From positions 17,310,501-17,374,500 of the forward strand of contig JAGUCH010000002.1 of NCBI GenBank assembly GCA_019096065.1: a DNA stretch of 64,000 nucleotides, read 5' to 3'. The notes beneath the pieces were generated by a model, which did no database searches, had not been told where the DNA came from, and was given only the letters and a program-made list of their open reading frames with translations. Shown piece after piece: positions 3,714 through 63,758 of the stretch. A program made the position numbers and the translations under genes. How positions within the stretch are numbered: position 1 is the first letter of the stretch; every line of letters starts with the position of its first letter. Origin of the DNA: Paracyclopina nana. Taxonomy: Eukaryota > Arthropoda > Copepoda > Cyclopoida > Cyclopettidae.

Positions 3714-6700
3714 TCATAATTCATACCTTTGCTTGTGTCCTATTCGAAAGAGGGTGGCAATCTCGTCAAAGGTCTTGTTTTTCGTCTCTGGCACCTTGCG
3801 ATATGTGAAGACCCAGAAGAGTGCGAGGAACACACTGAAGGGGAGGAAGGTGTAATTCTCCAGTGTGGTCTGCATGGTGGGAAAGCCGATGCCGACGAAG
3901 AAATTGGCACTCCAATTCACCAGGACGGCCACACTCATCGCGGCCGGCCTCGGGCCTTGAGAGAAGAGCTCAGCAGTGATCATCCAGGGTATGGAGCCAG
4001 GCCCAACTGCGAAGAAGACCACGTAGAACAGAGTGGACACCACCGAGAGCCACCAGATCCAGGCGACGAGCTCCTGCAAAAGTTCAAATTTTCCCAAGTT
4101 TTCTGAGCATACTTGTAACAAATTGTTAGTCATTTGTTTCATCAATGTTGAGTCGATGTCGTTTTAAGTGACATATTCGCAGTCTTTGCAAAATACGTCA
4201 ATGGCAAAACGTTAACTATGATTTTGTAACGTATGATTAATTAATGTAATCTAGAATATTTTATGGATGTAACGGCTTAACGGTTTTTGCCTTTGTTTCA
4301 TTTTACGAATGTAACGTTAATGTATCAAAATGACATTCACTCAATGTTGAAGAAACGTTCAAGCTTGAATGAGGATTATTCCAGATGTTCTGGTTGGGAT
4401 TGGAATGGCTCACCTTGACGAGGAATGAGATGGTGATGAAGATGGAGAAGATGAACATGCCACCAAGTCCGTAGAGGTGCAAAGTTCGCCTTCCGGATCT
4501 GTCCATCAGTGGGATGGAGATGAGTGTCATGATGACCATGACCAGGCCAATGCCAATGGTGGCATACTTGGCGTGCGTTTCACTCAAGCCAGTCGTGATG
4601 AACAGGTTAGTAGAGTAATAAAAGACCTGCAATGCATCAAAAAAATCCGGCTTGATATACCATTTTACAATTGTAATGCTATCCTCCTACATACCGCATT
4701 AATGCCTGATAGCTGCTGTGACAGCTGCATTATGATGGCTATGAGCAAGGGAAGCTTGAGCGTGGGCGAGGTCACGAGTTCAAAGAGGGTGATTTTGGCC
4801 TCAGCCATCTGAGCCTGCTCCTCGGCCCGCATCTCCATGATGTCATCCTCAATGTCGTTGGAGTTGCGAAGTTTCTTGAGGGCTGCAACGCAAAGTCCAA
4901 TTTCCAGCATCAAATTATCCCAACCCGAAATTTTCCCAAGTTTTCTGAACGTAATTGGAACAAGTTAACGCTAATTCATTTTATGTATGTTGAGTTTATG
5001 TTGTAATGTAACATGAACTGCCGCACTGCATATGTTAAAAAAATTAAAGGTGAAACTGCAAATTGGTCTGTTTAACTTCACTCAGGCGTCAGTGCAGTTA
5101 ATGTTACAGAATGACTTAAAGTCAATTGTGATGAAACATACATGAAGTACTTAAGTTTTATTTTCAGATATTCTTATTTAATTGCAACAAGTTAACTCTC
5201 ATTTGTTTTCTAAATGTTGAGTTTATGTCATAATGTAACATTAACTGCCTCACTACCCATGTTAAAAATCAAAGGTGAAACTGCAAATTGGTCTGTTTGA
5301 CTTCACTCAGGCGTCAGTGCAGTTAATGTTACAGAACGACTTAAACTCAATGTTGATGAAACATACATGTAGTGCTTGAGTTTTATTTTGAGAATTTTTT
5401 AGCGTTATTGTAACAAGTTAACGCTAATTCATTTTCTGTATGTTGAGTTTATGTTGTAATGTAACATTAACTGCCTCACCGCCTATGTTAAAAAATCAAA
5501 GGTGAAACTGCAAATTGGTATGTTTAACTTCACTCAGGTGTCAGTGCAGTTAATGTTACAGAACGACTTAAACTCAATTGTGATGAAACATATACGCTTC
5601 CAGGAGGGTTTAGGTATTGGATCATAATTACCTAATCTGGCTTCCTGCTCTTGACCCTTGGTGATGAGTAGGTATCGCGGAGATTCCGGACAGAGTGGAA
5701 GCAAGGCCATTTGGAGTACCGATGGGAAGAGGGCCACGCCCAGAAGGTAGGGCCAGCCCCCGTCGGTGCCAAGGAGGCTTTCGACCCCAAGGACCTGAGA
5801 GATGAGAAGACCCACGGTCACAGCCAGCTGGTTAACGGTGCCCAGGCCTCCGCGCAAAGTCAGTGGGGCGATTTCCGAGATGTACATGGGCACGAGGCTG
5901 GTGTTGAGGCCGCAGTTGATGCCGATCAAGTAGCGGCCAATGATGAGAAGCTCGTATGACTCGAGGAACTTGGAACAGCCCATGGCTGTGGCACCAATGA
6001 TCCCAATGACGTTGTTGAACAACAGCCCGCCTTTTCTGCAAATGAACAAATTTTGTTTTAGTATGACTCAAACCAGGAAGATTTAATTTTGATAGTTTCA
6101 CTGAGGGCTCAAAAAAATTCTGTACCCACCAAATATTTTTCCAGATTTCTTCTTGAACATAATGGCCAAAACTCTTTAATTTATGTAAAATAATTCATCA
6201 ATCGCATACAAGTTTGATAAGACAATCTGATAAAAACATTATTTGGCATCTAAAAATAATTTTCAATTTTTAACTATTAAGCTCTAAGGTATTATTAGCT
6301 TAGGCTTTCAGTTAAAGTTACATATCGACTTTCACTCGACATGAGTAAAACAAATTAATGCTAATACGTTACGATAACTTTCAGGAAACATGTGAAACAT
6401 TCTCGTTGGGTCATATGATTGGCTCTACTGGTTAAAGGCTAATTGGTAAAAGACTAAATGGTGAAAGGCTAAATTGGCAAAAGGCTACCAAACTATGCTG
6501 GTTGATTGTAATAAATGGAACAATTTTAAAGTATTCTTTCCTCCTTTAAAGACTTTTTTAGATGCTTCCCAATGTACTTACCAATGTTCCTTTGTATGCC
6601 AGAAATATCTAAGCTAAAGTAAAAAAGCTAAGCAAACACTCAACATTGAAAGCAACATAGCTGCTTTTGCTTCGAATGTTGAGCGTTTGCTTAGCTATTT

Positions 6701-63300: not shown

Positions 63301-63758
63301 TATGTAACATTAACAGCCTTGACGCCAAAGTAGAATCGAAAGCATTAATTTGCCATTTCACCTTTGATTTTTACTCATTGTCGGCTATGCAGTTAATGTC
63401 AATGACGACATGAACTCAACATGGGTAAAACGAAGGAGTGCTAACACGTTACAAAAACTTTCAGAAAACTTGGCAAAAATTCTTGTCGGGCAATAATAAT
63501 GGAGACACGCACCTGTAAATGCGAGGCCAGAGCAGCCATGACGTGCGCCTCGCCGAGCCCAAGATCGATCATTTCCAAAGACTTTTCAAGCAGCATGGCT
63601 TTCTCGCTTCGGTTGGCCTCGTTGCTCACCGGCTCCTCCGAGGCCGCAGCCACACCCTTGAGGCTGCTCAAGAGGCTCTGGTGCTCGGCTCGGAGGGCTT
63701 CCAGCCCCTTGGTCACCGTCTGGGCATTTATGACGATCTCCTCCTGGGAAATCCCCAT
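60062..63758 (-). CDS. Klc: kinesin light chain
   Basis: Cargo-binding subunit of kinesin-1 for plus-end transport along microtubules. Exons 63758-63513, 62639-62064 and 60988-60062, all phase 0, giving 582 residues. Residues 1-145 hold the heptad-repeat coiled coil that pairs with the heavy chain ([53 protein letters not shown]). An acidic linker follows ([11 protein letters not shown]). TPR repeats begin at [20 protein letters not shown] and continue through [80 protein letters not shown] and the last repeat [20 protein letters not shown]. The tail is Ser/Arg-rich ([20 protein letters not shown]) with possible 14-3-3 or kinase sites. The C-terminal end has been duplicated downstream. The start ATG opens a family-like N terminus. 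Confidence 0.95.
61033..61581 (+). mobile_element. family A MITE (copy plus extra 3' half) in KLC intron 2
   Basis: Starts ATAAGCCAGGGGAGGGACAA. The first copy breaks near 61381 (GTTAGGCTAGCATAATG), where a second 3' half (GGCTTGAAAGGGTGCCATTT to TACGCCTTTGGCTTATAG) begins. The two halves look like unequal recombination between copies. On the minus strand its frame runs open into KLC exon 3. Confidence 0.75.
61590..62060. other. KLC intron 2, unannotated stretch
   Basis: No repeat family or exon recognised, apart from a trace of the GGTCCTAACCCAAA-type element (61868-61955) also seen near 6760, 22650 and 23690. Confidence 0.45.
62690..63490 (+). mobile_element. family C MITE cluster in KLC intron 1
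   Basis: Three or four partly nested units (TTGACTTTGAGTTTATGTC, CGACATAGAGTTTATGTC twice) with a repeated insert CCAAGATGATCGAACTTGT (about 63015 and 63232). It ends AACTTGGCAAAAATTCTTGT, then CGGG, about 20 bp from the exon 1 donor. Confidence 0.75.

Follow-up and report, generated by a model that had tools for sequence, protein, structure and literature searches.

Palindromic MITEs of family C probably entered pre-existing introns, several of them short, in a 64-kb stretch of a presumed copepod genome

Introduction

MITEs are the described elements closest to family C, the repeat analysed here, which is likewise short, non-coding and multi-copy, with inverted-repeat ends, a duplicated target and hairpin potential; for C, no transposase partner was found in the two loci inspected (L034 and L038). 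The superfamilies of DNA transposons differ in their target-site rules, Tc1/mariner elements using TA only, and the duplicated pair of C varies, in contrast to that pattern.

Introners are the second system to be compared. As far as the accessible part of the article goes, Gozashti et al. 2022 (PMC9860276) reported introners in 175 of 3,325 genomes, including two animal groups with copepods named; an enrichment in genes was given for 161 of the 175, and a DNA-transposon signature for many, though not all, introner families. Family C is alike in its DNA-transposon signature, its probable copepod host and its making up most of some introns, whereas it differs in the ancient positions of the GLUT introns that carry it, in its variable distance from splice sites and in its young copies, which mostly lie off predicted exons. 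Within the copepods, many intron gains were described in Eurytemora affinis, some with GA or GG donors, which made up ~12% of the donors in curated genes (Robertson 2017, PMC5714493).

An earlier note on the DNA studied here had claimed that family C nearly fills many introns, with ends close to splice sites, and had proposed introner-like intron making, with insertion into or survival in existing introns as the alternative. The analysis favours the latter: C probably moved into pre-existing introns, some of ~50-70 bp, where its old copies would have been retained.

Window, host and gene models

The window, meaning the whole stretch of 64,000 bp that was analysed (G000:C2:17310501-17374500), belongs to a genome of 92 Mb in 10 contigs; the contig that carries it is 17.54 Mb long and ends ~0.17 Mb away. 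The host is probably a copepod, judged from protein similarity; among named proteins, copepods are nearest to the GLUT of the window (Lepeophtheirus salmonis 85%, Tigriopus californicus 75%), and an environmental protein reaches 95%.

Genes were modelled partly manually and partly by a small gene finder trained on its own predictions, and splicing is thus predicted. Gene names come from the earlier reader and from a reading of the translations, the identities of MSH2, GLUT and peroxidase being backed by similarity searches. The finder was restricted to GT-AG introns, so that GA or GG donors would be missed, and the 28 curated introns in the window were modelled with GT donors; the contrast between these GT models and the GA/GG donors of E. 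affinis carries this restriction, and one NCS-1 intron is probably GC-AG. In this NCS-1 intron 1 (49651-49776), the modelled GT donor (49719) disrupts the reading frame, and a GC donor at 49715 would restore it, by eye probably giving a 62-bp GC-AG intron.

Several other features of the window were recorded. A long single-exon gene at 46709-48934, by eye an NSF-type AAA ATPase, stands among multi-intron neighbours, and the region of the KLC 3' end (59190-60060) contains a tandem duplicate of ~0.5 kb, also seen by eye. Stretches at 41880-41945, 2140-2200, 16030-16080 and 35340-35440 look tRNA-like by eye, with a GGTTCGA-type box, and are perhaps tRNA-derived short repeats; ARAGORN, run with bacterial settings, called no tRNA genes in the window. 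Long arrays of 9-33-bp tandem repeats (7423-7622, 19986-21003, 8332-8450 and 45429-46038) sit in introns and intergenic DNA, several as mirrored pairs.

Structure of family C

Family C belongs to the MITEs, being a DNA transposon that is palindromic and non-autonomous. Its 30-base end has 288 matches in the genome at no more than three mismatches, which is a complete count, and 94 exact matches were listed. Cutting out 30 of the exact-end loci gave 28 bounded rows, equal to 26 distinct copies, as four rows represent one composite locus counted twice (L027/L028). Because a copy was chosen only if one end was exact and the other had no more than one mismatch, the finding lies in the pairing of the ends and not in the exactness of their match. 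Canonical C is 285 bp long, non-coding and multi-copy, with a mean pairwise identity of 93% over 25 rows of 250-320 bp. Both ends of the compared copies bear the 14-bp terminal inverted repeat CCCAACCAGAAATT, the element ends also being denoted CCCAACCAGAA, and the consensus folds as a full-length, end-to-end hairpin. Matching 2-bp flanks were found in 22 of 28 rows, or 22 of 26 distinct copies, where the chance of a match is 1 in 16 at equal base frequencies; the duplicated pair may be AT, TA, TG, AA, CC or others. The inverted-repeat ends and the 2-bp duplications point to ordinary DNA transposition.

No transposase was recognisable in the open frames of the two loci inspected for an autonomous partner, of which L034 holds a nested insert and L038 is truncated. 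A literature search by a few terms found no published description of family C itself.

The copies in the window are older, with a best local identity to the consensus of 71-86%, and several contain tandem repeats of 168-231 bp. One exact C end lies inside the window, in MSH2 intron 4, which demonstrates that an exact end is not always the sign of a young copy.

Abundance of family C and proximity to exons

A profile search identified 18 C blocks in the window, which extend from 4086 to 63490 and cover 8,874 of its 64,000 bp; a rerun split one of them, giving 19 blocks and 8,823 bp, and the 19 blocks were used in the proximity tests. Ten loci from a random draw contained 481 bp of C in 100,000 bp, and the 20 kb directly adjoining the window contained 0 bp. 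Among the matches listed, those of the old type cluster by eye towards contig ends, for instance at 16.6-17.5 Mb of contig C2 and 6.63-6.88 Mb of contig C7, with exceptions such as 5.12 Mb of contig C4. The short end motifs are a weaker signal than the C blocks: AACCAGAA alone occurs 8 times in the window against 3.3 expected, and TTCTGGTTGGG with up to two mismatches occurs 27 times against 18.3 expected, a number reached in 6 of 100 shuffles.

C is carried by 13 of the 28 curated introns, and the nearness of its ends to splice sites was confirmed in all of the introns for which the earlier note had claimed it. In total, 14 of the 19 window blocks are no more than 62 bp from an exon versus 9.8% expected (P=5.5e-11), and 10 of the 19 within 30 bp versus 5.3% expected (P=1.1e-8), under a null in which C was excised and insertion points were drawn from the remaining non-coding DNA; the blocks are partly non-independent, as second copies and arrays share single introns. 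A second family of ~380 bp, repeat D, was found in the same way and served as the control. Of its 11 window blocks (616-961, 15244-15626, 18188-18570, 26956-27338, 28801-29178, 33520-33893, 38339-38721, 44128-44503, 54157-54542, 55954-56338 and 61037-61580), 3 lie within 62 bp of an exon versus 9.6% expected (P=0.08).

Age of the copies and their placement

The excess of C blocks near exons, set against the control D, could mean that C, or an old subfamily of it, prefers to insert beside exons or into short introns. The young copies speak against such a preference. Only one of 30 young blocks (at least 90% identity) is 62 bp or less from a predicted exon, compared with 6.7% of the non-coding bases in the ten loci, so that no exon preference is seen at insertion; the block concerned, in L022, is 57 bp from the exon, and C does not fill that intron. 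Among diverged blocks outside the window, 4 of the 24 with 80-90% identity were this near, as was 1 of the 10 with less than 80%. The total of 5 in 34 versus 6.7% (P=0.075) is clearly lower than in the window (P=4e-5), although exons may have been missed more often in the short fetched loci, which would exaggerate the contrast. An insertion preference is accordingly regarded as rather unlikely.

With the window included, the exon-near share rises with age from 1 of 30 through 6 of 29 to 13 of 24 (trend P=2e-5). The trend is absent without the window (P=0.27), and the exon-adjacent excess therefore belongs to the window. Equal placement in intergenic DNA, which the earlier note had regarded as speaking against introner-like behaviour, thus holds for the young blocks and not for the old window copies. 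Retention, in place of insertion preference, would be what puts old copies beside exons; the age trend, being lost outside the window, gives retention no support genome-wide.

Introns carrying family C

In the GLUT gene (minus strand), the intron at 4074-4413, named in the earlier note, is almost all C: the element occupies 4086-4398 and leaves 27 of 340 bp outside. Further C-bearing introns of this gene, not named before, are those at 4883-5631, with C at 4919-5611 including 227-bp tandem repeats and 56 bp outside C, at 6036-7038, with only a C fragment at 6297-6410 (114 bp in 1,003 bp), and at 9899-10765 in the N-terminal part, with C at 10066-10733 and the donor 32 bp away. The GLUT intron at 4627-4694 (68 bp, minus strand) is C-free and serves as a comparison case.

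MSH2 intron 4 (19197-23924, plus strand) bears C at 19212-19835, 15 bp from the donor, and at 21133-21443. Two blocks between MSH2 and Prrx (24220-24867), at 24220-24663 and 24742-24867, are non-intronic, the first beginning 17 bp beyond the MSH2 coding end. In Prrx (plus strand), intron 1 (25360-27367) has C at 25386-25952 with the donor 26 bp away, and intron 3 (29715-30966) is filled by C at 29734-30927, with flanks of 19 and 39 bp. Prrx exon 1 also has an inverted copy of its 3' end, donor included (24629-24730 versus 25318-25420, 93% over 103 bp), which lies ~0.7 kb upstream of the original, between two C blocks; a shorter second piece of the copy is found at 24832-24877.

The peroxidase gene (minus strand) has C at 39533-40011, 40063-40376 and 40956-41401 in the intron at 39480-41416 (outer flanks 53 and 15 bp), and at 41977-42376 in the intron at 41859-42390, the donor being 14 bp away. 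A probable 5'UTR intron at 43010-43595, modelled from splice signals only and likewise an addition to those named before, has C at 43072-43506 with flanks of 62 and 89 bp. The remaining cases are NCS-1 intron 2 (50020-50504, plus strand; C 50032-50467, flanks 12 and 37 bp), SSUH2 intron 3 (58462-59054, plus strand; C 58503-59010, flanks 41 and 44 bp, fold z-score -24.8 versus shuffles) and KLC intron 1 (62640-63512, minus strand; C 62674-62986 and 63053-63490, outer flanks 34 and 22 bp). Beyond the window, an intron at 4012-4849 of locus L061 is also C-filled (C 4057-4820, flanks 45 and 29 bp).

GLUT introns at human SLC2A1 positions

The conserved core of GLUT aligns with human GLUT1 free of gaps near the intron positions, and each of its four introns has a human SLC2A1 counterpart at the same residue and in the same phase; C is present in three of them. 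The intron at 4074-4413 corresponds to c.1074/1075 and the C-free intron at 4627-4694 to c.867/868, which are presumably the human boundaries. The relatives' proteins are continuous across the matched exon junctions in five proteins, three motif look-ups giving no match. The intron at 6036-7038 equals c.275/276 and that at 4883-5631 equals c.679/680; SLC2A1 variants c.275+1 (PMC11904636) and c.680-1 (PMC11958367) are in print, as are c.972+1 and c.516+2 (PMC8645975), going by the accessible parts of these articles. The human introns at c.972 and c.516 have no counterpart in the window GLUT.

The ancient positions of the GLUT introns signify that C entered introns there and did not make them. 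Judged from the alignment and the predicted gene models, intron making is excluded for the three C-bearing core introns.

Flank lengths and splice signals

Subtracting C leaves lengths that resemble small introns. In 7 of the 13 C-bearing introns, the outer flanks sum to 27, 49, 56, 56, 58, 68 and 85 bp; of the 52 C-free introns in the window, L059 and the ten loci, the 16 that are no longer than 100 bp have a median of 57 bp. The two sets do not differ (Mann-Whitney P=0.81), which is agreement and not proof, as both were cut at 100 bp. The other six C-bearing introns have 132-2,496 bp beyond the outermost C. A C copy within an intron of ~57 bp is bound to lie close to both splice sites, and the proximity noted above is thereby explained.

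The splice sites used fall outside C in 13 of 13 introns. The distance from C to the donor is 12-89 bp in 12 of the 13 and 628 bp for the fragment, and that to the acceptor ranges from 12 to 2,481 bp, so there is no fixed offset from the splice sites. C lies within 30 bp of the donor in 9 of 13 introns and is closer to the donor than to the acceptor in 10 of 13, a bias short of significance (P=0.09); donor-side placement would spare the branch point and the acceptor. Whichever way C is oriented, its inverted repeats place CAG close to the 5' end and GTTGGG at the 3' end, opposite to the arrangement that an intron requires. In the GLUT intron at 4074-4413, 12 bp separate C from the acceptor, as measured from the profile boundary, and the branch point should therefore lie in C-derived sequence.

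MSH2 and peroxidase introns in relatives

The four MSH2 introns were located manually in the alignment and correspond to human residues 409/410, 565/566, 659/660 and 810/811, and none of the four coincides with a human intron if the exon ends are, as presumed, those of human MSH2. Copepod introns at unshared positions are likewise a feature of E. affinis.

Environmental relatives lack some of these introns. All 14 aligned relatives read through MSH2 intron 1, which carries no C. In P0004 (76% identical, 8.5-kb contig), homology stops exactly at MSH2 intron 2, as it does in P0008 and P0009, while P0006 (17.6-kb contig) reads through all four introns including the C-bearing fourth. For peroxidase, six relatives were inspected; in five of them, on contigs of 4-11 kb, none of the three coding intron positions interrupts the reading frame. 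From P0006 and the peroxidase read-throughs, the C-bearing introns at these positions may be young, some of the environmental contigs possibly being transcripts. The variation in read-through indicates that introns come and go among the relatives, and loss in the relatives would be as possible as gain here.

In MSH2 intron 1 (13556-14564), the beginning of exon 2 is repeated with 93% identity at 14085-14183, and there are two more internal duplications of 149 and 86 bp; together with its absence from all 14 aligned relatives, this suggests that the intron was gained by local duplication.

These comparisons bear on the proposal that C is an introner, whose insertions into exons made introns with splice sites taken from the neighbouring exon sequence. 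Reports of introners in animals are few and include copepods, as stated in the accessible part of PMC9860276, and the proposal also draws on the proximity of C to the donor, on the unshared MSH2 positions and on the relatives that read through MSH2 intron 4 and the peroxidase positions. Against it, the GLUT introns are at ancient positions, the CAG and GTTGGG of C are the wrong way round, the flank lengths vary, the only young block near a predicted exon lies in an intron that C does not fill, and the MSH2 intron missing from all 14 relatives is the C-free one. Introner-like intron making thus found no support where it could be tested, namely in the GLUT positions, the location of the splice sites outside C and the placement of the young blocks, and the proposal as a whole is very unlikely. 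As environmental relatives lack some of the introns at non-GLUT positions, intron gain by C is conceivable there, though unlikely. A more specific version, to which equally little probability is given, is that some non-GLUT C-filled introns (MSH2 intron 4, Prrx introns 1 and 3, SSUH2 intron 3, KLC intron 1 and those of peroxidase) were made by C in this copepod lineage, and that C replaced all but 27 bp of the GLUT intron at 4074-4413, where it must supply the branch point. If true, a single MITE family would both occupy ancient introns and generate new ones.

The least probable explanation, that C is tolerated in short introns because an RNA hairpin keeps donor and branch point close, was set aside on mixed results: the fold z-scores are -0.8 to -24.8 in ten C-bearing introns below 1,300 bp and the donor-to-branch path is 6 steps in the GLUT intron at 4074-4413 and NCS-1 intron 2 (34 and 27 in shuffles), but the path is short in only these two of ten, being 22-48 steps in the other eight against shuffle means of 21-34 and above the mean in four of them, a z-score of -5.0 is also reached by a C-free intron that holds simple repeats, and minimum-energy folds are unreliable for long introns.

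Insertion into existing introns and its significance

Insertion into existing introns, the alternative raised in the earlier note, holds for GLUT and fits the leftover lengths of the most C-filled introns. In the sequence of events proposed here, C copies would enter introns that already exist, several of them ~50-70 bp long; a host intron of ~55 bp would place C within tens of bp of both splice sites. Old copies would be kept in introns as copies elsewhere decayed or were lost, and tandem repetition within C, second copies and other repeats would enlarge the introns. The non-GLUT introns, too, would predate C.

The appearance of intron creation, with element ends 10-60 bp from splice sites, can arise from a transposon that enters introns of ~55 bp. 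Intron position distinguishes insertion from creation, as in the GLUT intron that sits at an ancient position and today consists almost entirely of transposon. Were introners sought by repeat-filled introns alone, such an intron could be miscounted as one, and copepods are a group in which introners have been reported.
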